Position numbers and translations under genes: made by a program. Shown one piece after another: positions 40,183 through 49,438 of a stretch of 64,000 nucleotides of DNA. The notes beneath the pieces were generated by a model. That model made no database searches. It had not been told where the DNA came from and saw only the letters and a program-made list of their open reading frames with translations. Each line of letters starts with the position of its first letter. Position 1 is the stretch's first letter. This DNA comes from Deltaproteobacteria bacterium Ga0077539 (lineage in GTDB: Bacteria; Myxococcota_A; Polyangia; Polyangiales; Ga0077539), in the NCBI GenBank assembly GCA_001465015.1, contig LNEO01000277.1:62001-126000 (forward strand), in the 5' to 3' direction.

Positions 40183-41112
40183 CTACCCGATCACCGGGTG
40201 GCGCGCGCTGAACTCGTGGATCGCGTCCTCATTTGAATACTGGGGTTTGTATCCAGTGGCATCGCGAAACGGTCGATCGTCGATCACGACGGGGTACTTG
40301 ATGTGCTCGATCGCGCCCCGGGCGAGGCGCGGCATGCCCCTTCGGCCGAGCAGGGCGGCGAGCACGAACTCGGGCAACGGCAGCGTCTGGCGCCCCGCCG
40401 TCTTCGCGATCATGGAGAGGGGCTGGGCGTTTCCGCCGGCGACGTTGAACACGCCGCGCGGCCGCTTCTCGAGCGCGATGGCCAGCGCCGAGGCCACGTC
40501 GTCTTCGTGCATGAACTGAAACAGCGGGTCGAAGCCGAGGACCATCGGCACGCGACGGCCCTTCAGAAATGTTCCGAGCGTTCCTTCTCCCGAGGCGCCG
40601 AGCGTGTAGCAAAAGCGCAGCACCGTGGTGGTCATGTCCCTCGCGCGCCACAGGGCGGTGGCCGCGAACAGGTCTGCGCTGACGAGGTCTGCGAGCTCGG
40701 GAAACGTCGCGAGCGCCATCGGCGGCTCTTCTTCGCGGTGATAGAGCGGCGCGTCGGGGCCCGCCCCGTAGTACGTGTGCCTGCCGACGAAGACGACGTG
40801 CTCGACTCCGTACCGTTGGCAGTGCTCGAAGACCGCCTGGGTGCCTCCGAGGTTGATGCGGTAGCGCTCTTCGTCGCGGGTGCGCGTGAGGTGCGAGACG
40901 GTGGCCATGTGCACCACGGCGTCGGGCTTGTGCTTGCGAAACACGTCTTCGGCTGCGCGCTTTCGAACGTCGACCGCGTGGAGCTCGACGCCTTCGGGCG
41001 GATCCGGCCACGGGCGTCGGTCGATGCCGATGACCTGATGTCCCTGCGCGATGAGCTTGCTCGCGAGCCGGCGCCCGATCGCCCCGGCGATCCCTGGAAC
41101 GAGGACCTTCAT
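40183..41112 (-). CDS. NAD-dependent sugar epimerase/dehydratase-like protein
   Basis: Extended SDR of 309 residues starting at the ATG at 41110-41112. The dinucleotide-binding motif is [20 protein letters not shown], with acidic IGID after the second strand. [20 protein letters not shown] and [12 protein letters not shown] are typical extended-SDR sequences; the usual catalytic YxxxK is not obvious at the expected spot, where [13 protein letters not shown] occurs. It overlaps the stop of the acyltransferase gene (ATGA). The two probably served the same lipid or envelope pathway. Confidence 0.82.
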
Positions 41113-41928
41113 TCTGCTCGCCTGCCTTCTTCGATGAGCGCGCGCACGCGGCTCTTCACGGTCTCGACGTAGCCAGCGATGACTTCGTCGTCTTCGCGGC
41201 CGGTGCCCTCGAAGACGATGGGCTCGCCGTAGTGCACGCGGAGCTTCACGGGGAGCGGGAGCGCCGCGCCGTAGGGCGTGAAGGGGACGTAGGGGACCCC
41301 CATCATCTTTCCGAGCTTGTAGGCGTTGTAGATGGTGGGGACCGCGTCGCCGCCGCCCACGAAACCAAAGGGAACGATGGGGGTCTTGGTCTCGAGCGCG
41401 AGCCGGACGAACCCTGTTCCGAAGTCCACGAGCGAGTAGCGATCGCTGTAGAGCTTCGCGGTCCCGCGCGCGCCTTCGGGAAACACCATGAGCAAACGCT
41501 CGTCCTCGAGCAGCCGCCGCGCGTGCTCGGGCAGCCCCGTGAGCTGCCCTGTGCGGGCGGACCATTTGCTCGCGAACGGCAAACTTCTCGACCATGCCCT
41601 GCGCCAGCCTGGGCGGGTCCTTCTCGAGAAACATCGACGCGATCACCATGAGCCCGTCGATCGCGACGCCCCCCGAGTGATTGCCGATCAGCATCGCGCG
41701 TCCGCGGGTCGGAACGTGTTCTGCGCCCACGCACGCGACGCGAAAGTAGTATCGATACAGCCGCGAGAGCGTCGTGTAGAACCACGCCAGGTCGCTCTTT
41801 CGCACGCCGTACGGATCGACCCCTTGCGCGTCGAACGACAGCTCGAGCGCGTCGACTCTCCGCTCGATGTCGGTATTCACCAGCAGGGACAATGCCTCTC
41901 TCGCTCCTTTGGCCGCAGAGGGTCGCAC
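41109..41928 (-). pseudogene. lysophospholipid acyltransferase-like gene with a frameshift
   Basis: Two reading frames join at about 41583 to give one acyltransferase of about 272 residues. The first part (GTG at 41926-41928) ends [20 protein letters not shown] and then [10 protein letters not shown]. The second part continues in another frame as [20 protein letters not shown] with MVFPEGARG, the family motif III. One extra base, or loss of two bases plus whole codons, explains the shift. The N-terminal frame then stays open by chance into the epimerase gene, which would give a hybrid of 581 residues with about 160 out-of-frame residues. It may be a real inactivation, a sequencing error or, less likely, programmed frameshifting. 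Confidence 0.75.
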
Positions 41929-42927: not shown

Positions 42928-44103
42928 TTACAGCGACAGCTCGAGCCCGACGCTCGCCTTGGGGATCACCACTGTGTGAAGCGGCACCGTCCCCAATTCG
43001 CTCGCGATGAACGCGGTGAGCTTCGTCGCCTCGCCCTCGATCGCCCTGGCTCGCTCGGTGCCCACGTCGGTCGCGATCCACCGCAGGTGCACTTTGCGAC
43101 CGCCTTCGTCGTAGGCCCATCCTCCGAGAACCTCTGCGCGCGCGAGCATCGTCGCTCCGACGCCGTGGGCCCTGCTCGTGATGGCGCGCGCCACGGTCGA
43201 GGTGCTCATGAACGGGAGGTGAACGTCGGTGAGCGGATCGCGGACGGGCAGCAATCTGGCAGGCCATTCGCTCGCATCGAGCGCGCTCGGCGGCGAGAAG
43301 TCCGCGGGCACCCAGCAGGCCTCGTCGATCCCCTCGACGATGACCTCGCGCGCTCCGATGCTCTCGAGCGCGGTCTTCGCGCGCCCCGTGGCGAGGCCGA
43401 ACGCGACCGCGAAGCTCTTGAGCGGCGCCGGCGCAAACGCGCCGAGCCATCGCGCTGCGACGAACCCGACCGCGTCCGCGCCCGAGGGAGTCGGGCGAGG
43501 GTTGGGGTCGATCTGCCAGCGCGACGTCGGATCGTCGCCGCGCGCGCTGGGAGGCACGCGCCACAGCTCGCCGTTGGCCCACAATTGCTTGAGCACCAGC
43601 GAGGCGAGGGTCGGGACTCCGTTGCGCTTTCCCACGTCGCCAAGGGGGCGAAGCGCGGCCTCGGGCAGCTTTCGGCGCAGCTCATCGGCGCTGTGCGGCT
43701 CGAGCAGAAGACCGCGGAGGGCGTCCCTCGCGCCGTCGAGGTCCCGCGCGGTGAGCGAGACCGACGCGGCGATCCTCGCTTCGCGTGAGGCCAGGTCAGC
43801 GACCGCGAACGCGCGGCACACGGGCGCCTCTTGCGCGGCCACGAGCCACGTCGAGCTCTTGGGCCCCGGAACGACCACGAGCGAGTGCGACTTGCAGACG
43901 GCCTCGTCGAACGGCGCTCGCTCCGAGAGCGCTCCGCGCGCGAAGAGCGCGAGGGGCGCGCTCGCCATAGAGGCGAGCGGAATCCAGCCGATCGCCGACA
44001 CGACGTCGACGAGAGGCGTCTTCGCGGGCGGCGCGGTGAGCAGCCACTGCCGCTGCCACCAGCTCGCGCGCGCTTGCTCGAGCGTCAGTCGTTGCGAGGT
44101 CAT
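42928..44103 (-). CDS. AlkZ/YcaQ-like winged-helix DNA-binding protein
   Basis: Protein of 391 residues of the HTH_42 (winged helix DNA-binding, DUF1006) superfamily, which includes glycosylases that repair DNA crosslinks. The features are the N-terminal TLEQARASWWQRQWL, the middle VGFVAARWLGAFAPAPLKSF (typical of the tandem winged helices) and the region LPVRDPLTDVHLPF, where AlkZ-type proteins have LxPxDPxL. The catalytic QxQ motif of AlkZ is not obvious, so glycosylase activity is uncertain. Start is the ATG at 44101-44103. It lies upstream of the methyltransferase with a 41-bp gap. Confidence 0.7.
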   Translation of the reverse strand: MTSQRLTLEQARASWWQRQWLLTAPPAKTPLVDVVSAIGWIPLASMASAPLALFARGALSERAPFDEAVCKSHSLVVVPGPKSSTWLVAAQEAPVCRAFAVADLASREARIAASVSLTARDLDGARDALRGLLLEPHSADELRRKLPEAALRPLGDVGKRNGVPTLASLVLKQLWANGELWRVPPSARGDDPTSRWQIDPNPRPTPSGADAVGFVAARWLGAFAPAPLKSFAVAFGLATGRAKTALESIGAREVIVEGIDEACWVPADFSPPSALDASEWPARLLPVRDPLTDVHLPFMSTSTVARAITSRAHGVGATMLARAEVLGGWAYDEGGRKVHLRWIATDVGTERARAIEGEATKLTAFIASELGTVPLHTVVIPKASVGLELSL

Positions 44104-44166: not shown

Positions 44167-45330
44167 TCACTCGAACGCGTACACCGCGGCTTCGCCACGG
44201 GCGGTGATCATCGCGTCCACGTGCGCGACGAGGCGATCGCGACGCGCGAGGATCGCGGCGATCCCGTTGTCGCCCACCGGAGAGCCGAGCGGGTCGAGGC
44301 GCATCTCGCGCGAGAGTGAATCCGCGCTCATCGCGCGCAGCCGAGCGAGCAGCGACCGCGACACGCGAGAGATGCGCGACAGCCGCTGCGACTGGTCCGT
44401 CGGACGCGCGCCCATGTTGTCGCGGCCGATCGTGAAGGCCGCGCCGTTGTCCATGAACAGCATCGGAGGCGCGGGGTTTTGCGCGGTCGCGCGCTGACGA
44501 AGAATGTTGCCGCCCGACCAGCGATCGATGTTGTCGTTGATGAAATCGACGAGGATCAACGCCGACAAATCCGCGGCGAGCGCGCGATCGCCGTCCGCGA
44601 GAGGTTTGCTCGTGTCGAGCAGGTCGGGGTACCGCTCGCTGCCGGGCACGTTTTCGAGCCCGCCCGGCACCCAATAGATCATCGCTCCCGGAACGTTGTC
44701 GCCTCGCCCGAGCACCTCGCGCATCACGCGCTCGGAGAACGGCATGTCGCCGGTCGCGTCCGCCGTTCGCTGCAGCATCGAGCGCGGGAGCGCGCGCCCA
44801 CAAGCGGGCGGCGCCCGGTGCAGCCCGAGGAAGCGAGACATTCGATACGCTGCGATTTCAGCGCGAAAGTTCGCGACGCTGTTGGTCTGCTGCGGCTTGA
44901 ACAGCCCGCGCCCGCCGTCCGCGAACCACACCCGAAACGACAGCGTGCTGCCGCCGGTGTTGCGCTGCATGCGAACGACCTCGGCGTCGCACAGGCGCCG
45001 AAGGATCACCCGCTCGTCTGCTCCGAGAAACGAGCTCGACCCGTCTGCGCCCGCGACGCTCGGGGCGGCGCCGCCCTCGGCGCCGTCGCTCGCGTCCAGG
45101 GTACTGGGCGGCGCTGCGTCGGCGGTCGGTGGGGCGGCGCTGCTCGAGCGCCCCCCCGACGCGTCCACGGCGACGGGCGAAGCTGCGTCCGCTGGGGAAG
45201 CCGCGGGGGCGTCCCGGGCGTTGTCTGCGGGCGTCTCGGTGCGCGAGCAGCGGCCGCCGAGGAAGCTCGCCGCGAGCGCGACCCCGAAGACGCAGGAGAA
45301 AATGTGCCTTGGTTGACGGTCCAGAGTCAC
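44167..45330 (-). CDS. exported FAM20/HipA-like kinase candidate
   Basis: Protein of 387 residues from a GTG at 45328-45330. An N-terminal hydrophobic segment (FSCVFGVALAASFLGG) and a long Ala/Asp/Ser linker (30-100) precede a kinase-like domain. That domain shows FKP with K145 (RGLFKPQQ), E158 in RAEIAAYRMSRFLGLHRAPP, DFINDNIDRWSGGN with D269 and N275, and MDNG with D294. This order (Lys, Glu, DRx4N, DNG) is the pattern of FAM20 and related HipA/PI4K-type kinases. The Cys after the hydrophobic stretch is preceded by Arg, so it is not a good lipobox. Activity on surface proteins or glycans is inferred. Confidence 0.7.
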   Translation of the reverse strand: MTLDRQPRHIFSCVFGVALAASFLGGRCSRTETPADNARDAPAASPADAASPVAVDASGGRSSSAAPPTADAAPPSTLDASDGAEGGAAPSVAGADGSSSFLGADERVILRRLCDAEVVRMQRNTGGSTLSFRVWFADGGRGLFKPQQTNSVANFRAEIAAYRMSRFLGLHRAPPACGRALPRSMLQRTADATGDMPFSERVMREVLGRGDNVPGAMIYWVPGGLENVPGSERYPDLLDTSKPLADGDRALAADLSALILVDFINDNIDRWSGGNILRQRATAQNPAPPMLFMDNGAAFTIGRDNMGARPTDQSQRLSRISRVSRSLLARLRAMSADSLSREMRLDPLGSPVGDNGIAAILARRDRLVAHVDAMITARGEAAVYAFE

Positions 45331-45450
45331 TGTGGCAACTCGACGCGGCCTCGTTTGTTGCTGAAGGGCGCGCCGCCTTCCGGACGTCTCACAGCACGAA
45401 GCGCGGCGGAATAGCAACTCTGCCGCCAGAGATTCCACTGAACTCCCACC

Positions 45451-46659
45451 ATGACGCGAACAACGCCGCTCTCGCATCCGCGCCCCTCGTCGCACTTTAT
45501 CTCGTACGTGTGGGCGGCCATTGTCGCGTTGGCGGTCGTCTGTTCGCCGCGCTCTGCGCGGGCGATCGACGTGATGACCCGGCCCAACGCGGGGATCCAG
45601 CACCTGCATCGGACGACCCCGGCGCCCGCTGAGTTTCACGCGCTCGTCATCGACCTGAACGTCCCGGGCGTCGCCATTCGTTGCACGCCCCTGCGCGAGC
45701 GGTGGAAGGCGACGAGCACCTTCGCGCGCGGCGCCAACCTCGCGGCTGCCATCAACGGCGGCTTCTGGGGCGGCTTGCAGGGCGCTCAGGGCCTCGCTGC
45801 GGGCAGCGGTCAGGTGTGGTCCAGCGACGACGCGGATTTCGGCTTCTTCGCATACACGCGCGAGGGCAACGCGATGATCTCGCGCCCGAGCGACGTGGTC
45901 GAAGCGCAGCGTCGCGGGATCACCGACGGCGTCTCGGGCCGACCGTTGATCGTGGACCGCGGGCGCATCTCCGATGAGCTGCACCAGTTCGAAAACCGCA
46001 ACACCCGCGAGCCGCGCACGGCGGTGGGCGTCAGCGAGGACGGCAAGAAGGTGATCCTCGTCACCGTCGATGGCCGCCGCGCCACGAGCCACGGCGGGAC
46101 GCTCTACGAGATGGCCGAGCTGCTCATCGAGCTCGGCGCGTATCGCGGGCTCAACCTCGACGGCGGCGGCTCGACGACGATGTACGTCGCGTCCGAAGGA
46201 GGCGTGGTCAACCGCCCCTCGCGCGGCTGGGAGCGCGAGGTCGTCAATCACATCGGCGTCGTAGCCCCTGCCGTCGCTGCGGTCGCCGCGACGACGGCGA
46301 GCGACGGCGGCCCAGCTGCCACGACGGACGGCGCGCTCGCCGTGGCACCTGTTCGAGAGGTGCGCGAGACGCCGCAAGCCGTCGTGCAAGCGGCCCTTCG
46401 CAATCGGTCGCACGCGACGGACGTCGAGGCGGGCGAGGGCACGGGCCTGCGCGGGTGGATTCGCGCGCGCGTTGGCAACGCGCTCTTCATCGATCGATTG
46501 GGGCTGGGGCGGCATCGAGAGATCGTCGTTCCGATCTTGTACCTGGCGGCGCTGTTGACGCTCGTCGGGACCGCGTGGCTCGTCGTGCGCCGCGTGCGCC
46601 GCAAGCGCGCCGCCGGAGTGAACAAGGCCGAGAGCAAGAGCGAAGCCGCGGCGAATTGA
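45451..46659 (+). CDS. phosphodiester glycosidase (NAGPA family), membrane anchored
   Basis: Exported protein of 402 residues. The signal sequence (VWAAIVALAVVCSPRSARA) is followed by the NAGPA-type domain to about 270: NLAAAINGGFWGG, SGRPLIVDRG, PRTAVGVSEDGKKVILVTVD and LNLDGGGSTTMYV, the conserved set of this hydrolase family. Members release N-acetylglucosamine or other groups from phosphodiesters. A single transmembrane helix near 355-377 (PILYLAALLTLVGTAWLVV) with a basic tail anchors it. The ATG at 45451 has no strong ribosome-binding site. The gene is divergent from the kinase candidate with a 120-bp shared promoter region. Confidence 0.88.
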   Translation: MTRTTPLSHPRPSSHFISYVWAAIVALAVVCSPRSARAIDVMTRPNAGIQHLHRTTPAPAEFHALVIDLNVPGVAIRCTPLRERWKATSTFARGANLAAAINGGFWGGLQGAQGLAAGSGQVWSSDDADFGFFAYTREGNAMISRPSDVVEAQRRGITDGVSGRPLIVDRGRISDELHQFENRNTREPRTAVGVSEDGKKVILVTVDGRRATSHGGTLYEMAELLIELGAYRGLNLDGGGSTTMYVASEGGVVNRPSRGWEREVVNHIGVVAPAVAAVAATTASDGGPAATTDGALAVAPVREVRETPQAVVQAALRNRSHATDVEAGEGTGLRGWIRARVGNALFIDRLGLGRHREIVVPILYLAALLTLVGTAWLVVRRVRRKRAAGVNKAESKSEAAAN

Positions 46660-46696: not shown

Positions 46697-48013
46697 CTAG
46701 CGCCGCGCGGGATCGATCCCGTCCGCGCGCATGCGCGCCGGGTCCGCGAGGGTGGCCACGGTCCCCGCGGGGTGCGCAAACCAACGGCCGCGCTCGTCGC
46801 CCACGACGCGGTCGCGCACCTTCAAGATCGTGAACATCCCGCCCATGTCGATGTAGCCAAACGGCCCTGGACCGCCGCGCATCGGGAGGCTGTTCTCGGG
46901 CATCGGCATGGGCATCTCGCCCATTCCTCCCATGCCTGTCGCGCCCATCGTCATGTAGTCGGGCACGACCCTGCTCATCCGCCGATCGAGCGTTCTGGTG
47001 TTGGCCCCCACCATCGGCGGGGCGTTGTGCCCCATCTGCATCATCACGTGATGGGTCATGTGGCAGTGCATCGCCCAGTCGCCAGGCTCTTCGGGGACGA
47101 ACTCGATCACCTTCGTGCTCCCCGTCTGCACGAGCGCCGTCGTCGCAGGGTGCTGCGCGGACTCGGGGATGTACCCGCCGTCCGTCGCGGTGATCTTGAA
47201 ATTGAGCCCATGCAAATGGATCGGGTGGTGATCCATCGGGCTCAGGTTGCCGAGGCGAATGCGCACGCGCTCGCCCCTGGCGCACACGATGGGCTCCGTG
47301 GCAGGAAAAGCCTTGCTGTTGAACGTCAGCACGTTGAAGTCGGCCATCGCGTTCGGGTTGGGCCTGCGCGCGCCCGCGTCGATCTTCCACTCGTGCGTCA
47401 TCATCACGAAGTCGCGGTCCACCCGAGGTCCGCGCGGCCTGCGCGGGTGCACGATGAACATGCCGTGCATTCCCAGGGCGATCTGCGTCATCTCGTCGTA
47501 GTGCGGGTGGTACATGAACGTCCCGGGGTAGCGCAGGACGAACTCGTACATGAACGTCTCGCCCGGCTGGATCGCGCGCTGGGTGAGCCCGGCGACGCCG
47601 TCCATTCCGTTGGGCAAGATGAGCCCGTGCCAGTGCACCGCCGTCGGCTCTGGCAGTCGATTGGTCACGTAGATCCGCAGTCGATCGCCCTCGATCGCCT
47701 CGAGCGTGGGCCCCGGCGTGCGCCCGTTGTAGCCCCACACCCTCGCCCGGAGCCCCGGCGCAAACTCGTGGTCGATCTCCTCGGCGACCAGGTGCCCGAC
47801 CTTCACTCCGTCCACGATTCGCCAGGCAAGCGCCTCGCCGTTGAGCGTGTGCACCCGCGGCTGTCCGGGGGTGATGTCATTGGCTCTCGGCGGCGCTGCG
47901 CCGGCGTCTGGCGCGCCGCCGTCGACGCTCTGCGCGTTGGACTGCGAGGCCTTTACGAGCGCGGCCATTCCCGTCGCGATCGCGCCCATCGAAACAAACG
48001 ATCGTCGGTCCAT
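46697..48013 (-). CDS. Tat-exported multicopper oxidase
   Basis: Periplasmic copper oxidase of 438 residues that likely oxidises Cu(I) or protects against copper. The Tat signal is MDRRSFVSMGAIATGMAAL. All four copper motifs are present: HWHG at 127-130, HPH at 169-171, HPIHLHG at 263-269 and HCHMTHHVM at 316-324 (type 1 Cys-His). A Met-rich stretch follows (about 350-378, YMTMGATGMGGMGEMPMPMP), as in copper-handling oxidases. It begins 3 nt after the TolC-type gene stop, in one operon. Other substrates such as phenols or bilirubin are possible. Confidence 0.93.
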   Translation of the reverse strand: MDRRSFVSMGAIATGMAALVKASQSNAQSVDGGAPDAGAAPPRANDITPGQPRVHTLNGEALAWRIVDGVKVGHLVAEEIDHEFAPGLRARVWGYNGRTPGPTLEAIEGDRLRIYVTNRLPEPTAVHWHGLILPNGMDGVAGLTQRAIQPGETFMYEFVLRYPGTFMYHPHYDEMTQIALGMHGMFIVHPRRPRGPRVDRDFVMMTHEWKIDAGARRPNPNAMADFNVLTFNSKAFPATEPIVCARGERVRIRLGNLSPMDHHPIHLHGLNFKITATDGGYIPESAQHPATTALVQTGSTKVIEFVPEEPGDWAMHCHMTHHVMMQMGHNAPPMVGANTRTLDRRMSRVVPDYMTMGATGMGGMGEMPMPMPENSLPMRGGPGPFGYIDMGGMFTILKVRDRVVGDERGRWFAHPAGTVATLADPARMRADGIDPARR

Positions 48014-48016
48014 CGG

Positions 48017-49438
48017 TCAGTGTCCTCCGTGCCCTGCGCTCGGCGCGCTCGACAGCTCGACGCTGGTCATCATCGACGCGTCCGCGTCCACCGCGCGGCC
48101 CGCGAGCAGCGCTTCGAGCGCGGCTTTCGCTGTGTAGAACTCGCGCGCGGTCTCGATCGCCCGCATCTGCGCGTCGAGCTCGTCTCTGCGCGCTTGCAAG
48201 AGCACGAACACGCCGATCTGCATCGCGTTGTACTGCAGCATCCACTGCTCGAGCACGCGCCTGCGCGCCGGAACAATCACCGTCGCGTACTGCCTGGCGC
48301 GCAGGTGAGCGCTGAGCACACGATTTCGAGCGGAGCGCGCGCGCGAGCGCAGGTCGATCGACGCGCCGACGTAGCGCTCCATCGCGGCGTCGAAGGTGGC
48401 CTCGTGGGCGGTGAGCGTTCCCTGGCGTCGGTCGAAGAGCGGAAGGGTGACGCGCGCGCCGCCGCCGACCTCCCAGAATTGCCCGTCCTGTTCGATGTGA
48501 ACGTCTACAGACACGTCAGGAATGAGCCCCTCTGCGCGCGTGAGGCCGGTGCGCCTCGCGTGCGCTTCGAGCGCGCTGCGCTGCTCTTGTAGCGCGAGCG
48601 ACGCGGTGATCGCTCGTCGCTCGAGGTCCGGGACCACTTCGTACTGCTCGGGCAGCGCAGGCAGCTCGTCGCGCAGGCTCCACTCGGCCTCTTCTCCGTG
48701 CGCGCCCAAGAGCCTCGAGAGCGCCTCGCGTCGCTCGAGGACCTCGAGCTCGAGCTGCGCCACGGTGATCCTCGCGCTCTCGTACGCGGCCTCGTGCGTG
48801 GCGCGGTCGAGCGCGATGACGTTGCCGCTCTCGGTGAGCGCGCGCGCCGCGTCGCGACCGGCGGCAAACGTGTCGAGCGCGCGCGTCACCACGGTGAGCC
48901 GTGACTGAGACGCCTGCGTCGCGTACACCGCGGCGCGCACACGAAACCCGAGGTCGATCACGGCGCTCGCCGCGCGATGCCTGGCCGCGTCGAGCTCGGC
49001 GCGAGCGACTCCCGCCCGCACCGGGGCGAGCAGCGAGTGCGTCAGGTCCCACTCGAGTCCGAGGTCGAACTGCACGGGCTGCACGGGGTCGTTGGGGTGT
49101 CGAATGTCGAAATCGACCGCGGGATTCGCGACGAGCCCCGCCTGAACGAGCCTGCCTCGGTAGACGCCGAGCTCGCGCAGCGTGGCGCGAAGCGAGCGAT
49201 TGTTGCTGATCGCGACGCGCACGGCGTCTTCGGCGGTCATGGGCGCGCCGAGGATCCTGCGCACGGTCTCGCGGGACTCTGTGTCGACCTCGGGTGTTTC
49301 GAGGGCCGGAGGAAGCTCGACGCGCGACCGGCGCGACACGCGGTCGAGGTCGTCGCGAATGGAGTGCGACACGCACGACGACGACAGCGCCGCGAAGAGC
49401 GCCGCGAGCGCGAGTGTGCGAGGGCGCTCAACGGCCAT
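48017..49438 (-). CDS. TolC-family outer-membrane efflux protein
   Basis: Outer-membrane channel of 473 residues, of the CzcC/CusC type. The signal peptide ends in a lipobox (ALSSSC). The two TolC repeats are visible as AEDAVRVAISNNRSLRATLR in the first half and GARVTLPLFDRRQGTLTAHE in the second, with long Ala/Arg-rich coiled coils. The C-terminus is SAGHGGH. The ATG at 49436-49438 lies within the end of the small upstream gene (11-bp overlap), so translation is coupled. No RND or HlyD partner is next to it, so the inner-membrane pump must be elsewhere. Confidence 0.9.
   Translation of the reverse strand: MAVERPRTLALAALFAALSSSCVSHSIRDDLDRVSRRSRVELPPALETPEVDTESRETVRRILGAPMTAEDAVRVAISNNRSLRATLRELGVYRGRLVQAGLVANPAVDFDIRHPNDPVQPVQFDLGLEWDLTHSLLAPVRAGVARAELDAARHRAASAVIDLGFRVRAAVYATQASQSRLTVVTRALDTFAAGRDAARALTESGNVIALDRATHEAAYESARITVAQLELEVLERREALSRLLGAHGEEAEWSLRDELPALPEQYEVVPDLERRAITASLALQEQRSALEAHARRTGLTRAEGLIPDVSVDVHIEQDGQFWEVGGGARVTLPLFDRRQGTLTAHEATFDAAMERYVGASIDLRSRARSARNRVLSAHLRARQYATVIVPARRRVLEQWMLQYNAMQIGVFVLLQARRDELDAQMRAIETAREFYTAKAALEALLAGRAVDADASMMTSVELSSAPSAGHGGH

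Follow-up and report, generated by a model that had tools for sequence, protein, structure and literature searches.

A predicted exported FAM20-type kinase in myxobacteria, conserved head-to-head with a NAGPA-family phosphodiester glycosidase

The locus described here raises the question of why a gene for a putative exported kinase stands head-to-head with a gene for a phosphodiester glycosidase, and whether the two products might act together on the bacterial envelope. Both genes lie in a stretch of 64,000 nucleotides (the window) from contig 277 of the Ga0077539 assembly (9.7 Mb, 91% complete). The minus-strand gene (44167..45330) starts with GTG and encodes the predicted exported FAM20-like kinase of 387 amino acids, so named on profile, fold and N-terminal evidence, in which an N-terminal export signal is followed by an Ala/Pro-rich linker to about residue 95 and a kinase domain of about residues 100-387. 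The plus-strand gene (45451..46659) encodes a NAGPA-family phosphodiester glycosidase of 402 amino acids, and the two divergent start codons are 120 bp apart (45331..45450). The preliminary description of this DNA had placed the gene pair within the same bounds (44167-46659) and given the same gap, and its numbering of D269 and D294 in the kinase agrees with ours (K145 of FKP, D269-R-W-S-G-G-N275 and D294-N-G). An alternative mechanical ORF of 782 amino acids (44167-46515) spans the kinase frame; the GTG start of the 387-residue ORF is common to the two nearest relatives. Elsewhere on the minus strand, an acyltransferase-like coding stretch (41109-41928) is divided between two frames, with its N-terminal part in ORF 40183-41928 and the rest in 41109-41582, which by eye looks like a frameshift or an assembly error.

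The kinase sequence alone had no match in Pfam or NCBIfam, Fam20C included, and its top solved structure in a phmmer search was zebrafish FAM20C (E 7.9e-4). Profiles built from 22 and from 49 relatives matched FAM20C, FAM20A and the hydra and nematode FAM20 chains at E values of 2e-21 to 2e-32, all other matches lying above 0.01. With the larger profile, made from the 49-sequence alignment A2, the values were 1.6e-32 for FAM20C, 5.7e-26 for FAM20A, 3.3e-24 for the hydra FAM20B-like chain and 1.2e-22 for nematode FAM20, and the first match outside FAM20 was PI4K-II at E 0.015. When the 22 relatives were scanned with Pfam, Fam20C was matched by 14 (best 3.1e-18), HipA_2 by seven (best 1e-8) and FAM198 by five.

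An AlphaFold2 model of kinase residues 91-387, computed from the 49-sequence alignment, had a pLDDT of 93.8 and a pTM of 0.92. Rows 1-28 of a Foldseek search with this model were exclusively FAM20 chains, and comparison in VIA-align gave Z scores of 22.8-24.3 over 270-277 residues against nine FAM20 entries, 16.0-16.7 against PI4K-II, up to 16.0 against Helicobacter pylori CtkA and 12.1 against HipA. Since the leading Foldseek rows and the top Z scores all belong to FAM20, the modelled minus-strand product is a bacterial FAM20 homologue and not a HipA, which is a more distant fold relative. The kinase fold proposed in the preliminary description is thus present in the predicted structure and supported by the profile matches; its wording "HipA-like" as an equal alternative does not hold, with FAM20 at a Z of about 24 and HipA at 12.1. 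The HipA_2 matches and the Z score of the HipA chains could be taken to favour a HipA-like toxin-antitoxin kinase with an accidental NAGPA neighbour, but we regard this as highly improbable, since the FAM20 matches are far stronger by sequence as well as by fold, the protein appears to be exported, the pairing with NAGPA is conserved, and no HipB-like or other DNA-binding antitoxin family was found in the four scanned neighbours (AlkZ-like, NAGPA, multicopper oxidase and OEP). A HipA-type toxin was accordingly rejected on the order of fold scores and on the lack of an antitoxin among these neighbours.

Could such a protein be active? In alignment A2, Lys145 of the FKP motif, the ATP-binding lysine (codon 44896..44898, minus strand), and Glu158 are found in 48 of 49 rows, and all 49 rows have the catalytic-loop Asp269 of N-x-D-R-W-S-G-G-N (44524..44526, minus strand), Asn275, and the metal-binding, DFG-like Asp294 of DNG (44449..44451, minus strand). 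Conservation of the catalytic-loop motif in A2 is partly by construction because 48 of the 49 rows were collected through the pattern N-x-DRWSG[GQ]N; one sequence that was cut off (L099) was omitted from A2 and the trees. The kinases of clade II, which were found without the DRWSG motif, keep the lysine, the alpha-C glutamate and both aspartates, Asp269 among them, with a catalytic loop that is longer in the alignment. In one member of the window's clade (L040) Asp replaces the alpha-C Glu. From this conservation of residues, kinase activity is likely.

The preliminary description had credited the kinase with a full set of residues, and this stands for the FKP lysine, the glutamate, the catalytic Asp and Asn and the DNG motif; it does not extend to the second FAM20 acid. 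According to the available part of PMC5865150, this acid is Glu213 in the nematode enzyme and Asp152 in hydra, and is Gln in the pseudokinase FAM20A. In our alignment the position is taken by Ala153 of the window kinase, adjoining Asn154, and for this reason the protein could be a pseudokinase. According to the same text, hydra FAM20 and FAM20C have four disulfides; inspection of the kinase domain found cysteines only at 114 and 177, and the four-disulfide animal pattern is absent. It also lists His301 and Lys321 among the hydra contacts to Gal-Xyl. These align with Trp271 and Ala297 of the window kinase, and because of these replacements a FAM20B substrate cannot be assumed for it.

A pseudokinase, or a PKL enzyme of other chemistry (e.g. 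nucleotidyl transfer), might work as a partner of the NAGPA enzyme or regulate it allosterically, and conserved pairing would fit such a regulatory complex; nor is ATP expected outside the cytoplasm. The acid missing from the window kinase is also missing from FAM20A, in the account of PMC5865150 available. Against this, 48-49 of 49 rows, mostly solo kinases, have Lys145, Glu158, Asp269, Asn275 and Asp294, and the clade II rows retain the matching lysine, acid and two aspartates, which would be unusual for a dead kinase. We consider an inactive or otherwise diverted enzyme rather improbable.

The family is common in this order of the myxobacteria. Genome-by-genome searches covered Myxococcota, with a single pattern scan as the wider sampling; that scan, in which each named bacterial or archaeal species was represented by one genome, returned 49 loci labelled as Myxococcota groups or deltaproteobacteria, with one Proteobacteria. 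A protein query found a kinase homologue in at least 53 of 57 genomes, the window's own included, with 1 to 6 matches per genome among the matches listed, some being fragments of a single gene. Pfam Fam20C matched 14 of 140 genomes of the phylum, 12 of them over the cut-off, and none of 14 control genomes; the window's own genome was not among the 14. This count must be an undercount, since at least 53 of the 57 genomes match the protein query. All three clade II kinases scanned exceeded the Pfam Fam20C cut-off. No relatives were found in viral contigs with a single protein query, nor in plasmids. The window's genome has one further FAM20-like kinase, on contig 100, that is 33% identical.

The preliminary description had also noted an export-type N-terminus on the kinase, and the paired relatives support it. 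In a crude hydrophobicity script run on 19 of them, 16 had a hydrophobic N-terminal stretch followed by Cys, and 14 had a lipobox-like tetrapeptide; the N-terminus of the window kinase itself (...LGGRC) is atypical, with no canonical lipobox. Inspected by eye, the NAGPA relatives carry a signal at the N-terminus and, near the C-terminus, a hydrophobic helix with Arg/Lys behind it. Judged from these N- and C-termini, the kinase is predicted to be exported, probably as a lipoprotein, and to act beyond the cytoplasmic membrane, so that both it and the NAGPA enzyme would be exposed to the periplasm or the cell surface.

The NAGPA assignment of the neighbour was borne out by PF09992, which the protein matched at E 6.9e-37 and 127.7 bits (cut-off 25) over positions 2-169 of the 169 in the profile. 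It carries the motifs NGGF, RTAVG and DGGGS, and is laid out as a signal peptide, the NAGPA domain (96-271), a linker, and a C-terminal transmembrane helix, then Arg/Lys, recognised by eye. By its sequence the plus-strand product belongs to the NAGPA family of phosphodiester glycosidases and is anchored in the membrane, and cleavage of sugar-1-phosphodiesters would be expected from its family. NAGPA enzymes hydrolyse a sugar phosphodiester on its sugar side, so that the phosphate stays in place. The earlier suggestion that the pair could write and remove phosphate fails on this point. Five further NAGPA-family matches occur in the window's genome, a count that may include pieces of one gene. 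Stealth_CR2, the mark of a Stealth-type phosphotransferase that might supply a NAGPA substrate, had no match in the 57 genomes, and none in the controls.

Is the pair then more than a chance neighbourhood? The head-to-head arrangement occurs in the window and in L032-L040, L113-L122, L132 and L164. Together these account for 22 of the 24 loci that are informative within one NAGPA clade, and they represent five families. In the nine loci L032-L040, of the window's own family, the pair is head-to-head though the outer neighbours vary; the same arrangement is found in the ten loci L113-L122, from families f3, f4 and f8, and in L132, a truncated locus of the window's family. Fourteen extra loci, picked by NAGPA score alone, contributed L164 (family f5) as a further pair, and L168 and L173 as clade members without a kinase. 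In a NAGPA tree of 58 rows the pair clade comprised 25 rows with support of 100/100, of which 22 were paired, one lay at a contig end and two were unpaired; no kinase was found beside the other 33 rows (31 loci), 15 of these 31 loci spanning just 2.4-4.0 kb. When 28 window proteins (30-64 kb) were compared with 11 distant pair loci, only the kinase and the NAGPA protein matched in all 11, the sole further match being one methyltransferase (L114). The pair is also present in two genomes of one or two contigs (G023 and G039), and is thus not an artefact of draft assembly.

We considered whether the pair is mere background synteny and rejected this, the AlkZ-like, multicopper oxidase and OEP neighbours being common only to closer relatives. 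The AlkZ-like DNA glycosylase gene (42928-44103, minus strand) lies downstream of the kinase in the window. Of the nine loci L032-L040, seven have it beside the kinase; L034 has none, and the contig of L040 is short. Genes for a multicopper oxidase and an outer-membrane efflux protein (46697-49438, minus strand) adjoin the pair on the other side, and among the nine family loci they are kept with it only in L032-L034; no multicopper oxidase was found beside the pair in L035-L040 within the DNA examined. Because the head-to-head pairing is conserved and other neighbours have changed, there is strong evidence that the two genes have been selected to stay together in these lineages. Conservation of the pair, one of the checks that the preliminary description had proposed, is therefore confirmed.

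Of the 73 rows in the kinase tree, 53 were solo, a NAGPA gene was found in none of the 59 solo-kinase loci within the DNA examined, and several kinase-bearing genomes had no NAGPA match among the matches listed. Since many related kinases lack a NAGPA neighbour, the kinase in general does not need NAGPA.

Shared regulation was a further candidate explanation for the pairing. A 25-bp element, TTGACG-N12-TGTGGCA (45313..45337, plus strand), lies over the kinase start codon and is a candidate shared operator or promoter. Within the window's family, 10 of 12 loci have it at this place and with this spacing, in the form TTGACG-N12-TGTG[AG]CA, and a slightly stricter form has one site in the whole genome; no copy was seen in L132 or in L124, the contig of L124 running out shortly after the NAGPA gene. 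Read in the kinase frame, the element covers the codons CGT, CAA and ACA, which are unusual beside neighbouring genes with 87-89% GC at third positions, and for this reason it is probably a DNA signal. TTGNC and GNCAA could be read as half-sites about two helical turns apart, and the element may co-regulate the kinase and NAGPA genes. Among the 102 loci tested outside the family it was absent from all 11 distant pair loci and all 91 others, and so cannot explain the pairing in general.

The kinase tree of 73 rows, from which L132 was left out and into which five loci fetched twice were entered once, divides the paired kinases between that of the window, in which all 10 members are paired, and a further clade, in which 10 of 17 are. 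The NAGPA partners of the pair loci form one clade. An AU test of a group chosen after seeing the tree rejected the joining of just the two paired-kinase clades (p 0.0078), which implies that the pair arose twice around one NAGPA lineage, or once with loss in between. As further solo kinases separate the paired clades, a single gain with later losses is possible. In L128, L129 and L131 (f5) and in L125 and L127 (f9), a solo kinase has PAD_porph-like (agmatine deiminase type) and/or CN_hydrolase-like genes beside it, in f5 with the kinase upstream, the assignments being confirmed by Pfam on L129 and made by eye on the others; in L168 (4893-7239) a NAGPA gene is head-to-head with a PAD_porph gene, with no kinase between. 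Together, the f5 loci with solo kinase and PAD_porph and the arrangement in L168 fit the loss of one partner.

When hydra and zebrafish FAM20 were added, as two animal rows on long branches with no outgroup from outside the family, the animals and 13 solo myxobacterial kinases split from the other 60 with support of 99/99. Should the root lie on the bacterial side of this split, the animals would be nested within the bacterial family; the split is a lead from sequence trees, not a result. FAM20 proteins might then be ancestrally bacterial envelope kinases, animal FAM20 deriving from an exported glycan kinase of myxobacterial type, with bacteria still using one extracytoplasmically in combination with an "uncovering" enzyme, as in the animal mannose-6-phosphate route, a scenario that we hold to be speculative and unlikely.

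For the function of the pair, the reading that we prefer, and for which we find the case evenly balanced, is that the exported FAM20-type kinase and the NAGPA enzyme act together on one envelope glycan or glycoprotein and set the number of exposed phosphomonoesters. The kinase would add phosphate to a hydroxyl of the envelope glycan or glycoprotein, and the NAGPA enzyme would uncover phosphate by taking off the sugar cap from a phosphodiester. As NAGPA takes off a sugar and exposes the phosphate beneath it, the two would push in the same direction and not in opposition. We infer here the kinase activity, a common substrate and the glycan nature of that substrate. FAM20B, the older animal activity according to the available part of PMC5865150, would by analogy be the nearest functional counterpart for a sugar substrate.

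ATP is scarce outside the bacterial cytoplasm. This scarcity, and the NAGPA-clade members without a kinase (L168 and L173), count against the envelope-glycan reading. The kinase might instead be a FAM20C-type protein kinase acting on Ser/Thr of secreted or surface proteins, with the NAGPA enzyme acting on a different molecule and regulation alone being shared. The best profile and Z matches are indeed FAM20C chains, though hydra FAM20 comes within 1 Z of them, and the many kinase relatives without a NAGPA neighbour fit as well. However, the cysteine pattern, the Arg after DNG and the F-Y-F loop motif, as described in the available text of PMC5865150, are absent from the window kinase, and the pairing has outlasted changes of neighbour, which is more than shared regulation would usually need. 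We judge the FAM20C-type activity to be a serious contender that is nonetheless probably not the explanation.

If joint action on the envelope is correct, the pairing suggests extracytoplasmic phosphorylation of surface material by the bacteria that carry it, and the conserved NAGPA partner points to a concrete substrate class, phosphorylated envelope glycans. An exported kinase also raises the question of how kinases work where bacteria have little ATP. In the part of PMC9758233 available, a 2022 survey of Legionella, human and amoeba kinases, FAM20 is among the eukaryotic- or Metazoa-specific clusters; a bacterial, apparently exported FAM20 branch, common in this myxobacterial order, opens the question of the origin of animal secretory kinases. 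In the open-licence literature we found no report of a myxobacterial FAM20-like kinase or of a FAM20-NAGPA pair.

Among known systems, the animal FAM20 kinases (the xylosylkinase FAM20B, the protein kinase FAM20C and the pseudokinase FAM20A) are closest. They share with the modelled window kinase the fold over nearly the entire domain (Z about 24), the FKP lysine, the alpha-C Glu, the D-R catalytic loop, the DN(G) motif, C-terminal helices with a conserved Arg and, by prediction for the window kinase, an extracytoplasmic site of action. They differ in that identity over the fold alignment is about 17-20%, the window kinase has neither the second acid nor the cysteine pattern of the animal enzymes and the FAM20B sugar-contact residues are replaced in it, and in that the window kinase is bacterial and NAGPA-paired, with a lipoprotein-like anchor in most paired relatives. 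HipA has in common with it the PKL fold and a weak profile match in some relatives, and is set apart by a far lower fold score, by the export-type N-terminus of the window kinase, and by the absence of an antitoxin partner among the scanned neighbours. The CotH kinases are bacterial kinases reported in the available part of PMC7821199 to be distantly related to FAM20C, a likeness also drawn in that of PMC12189002. Compared through Pfam only, CotH was not among the 13 families matched (E <= 1) by the 22 kinase relatives. CotH acts on spore coats, unlike the window kinase, which is predicted to be exported. With the PF09992 enzymes, namely the human uncovering enzyme and the bacterial DUF2233 proteins, the window NAGPA protein shares the domain over nearly the full profile and a signal peptide. 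The human enzyme has a C-terminal membrane anchor, and the window protein appears to have one too; it differs in belonging to a separate clade with the NGGF motif, nearly always beside a FAM20-like kinase. FAM20 kinases and NAGPA enzymes are thus already known as kinds, and what appears to be new is a bacterial, apparently exported and NAGPA-coupled version.
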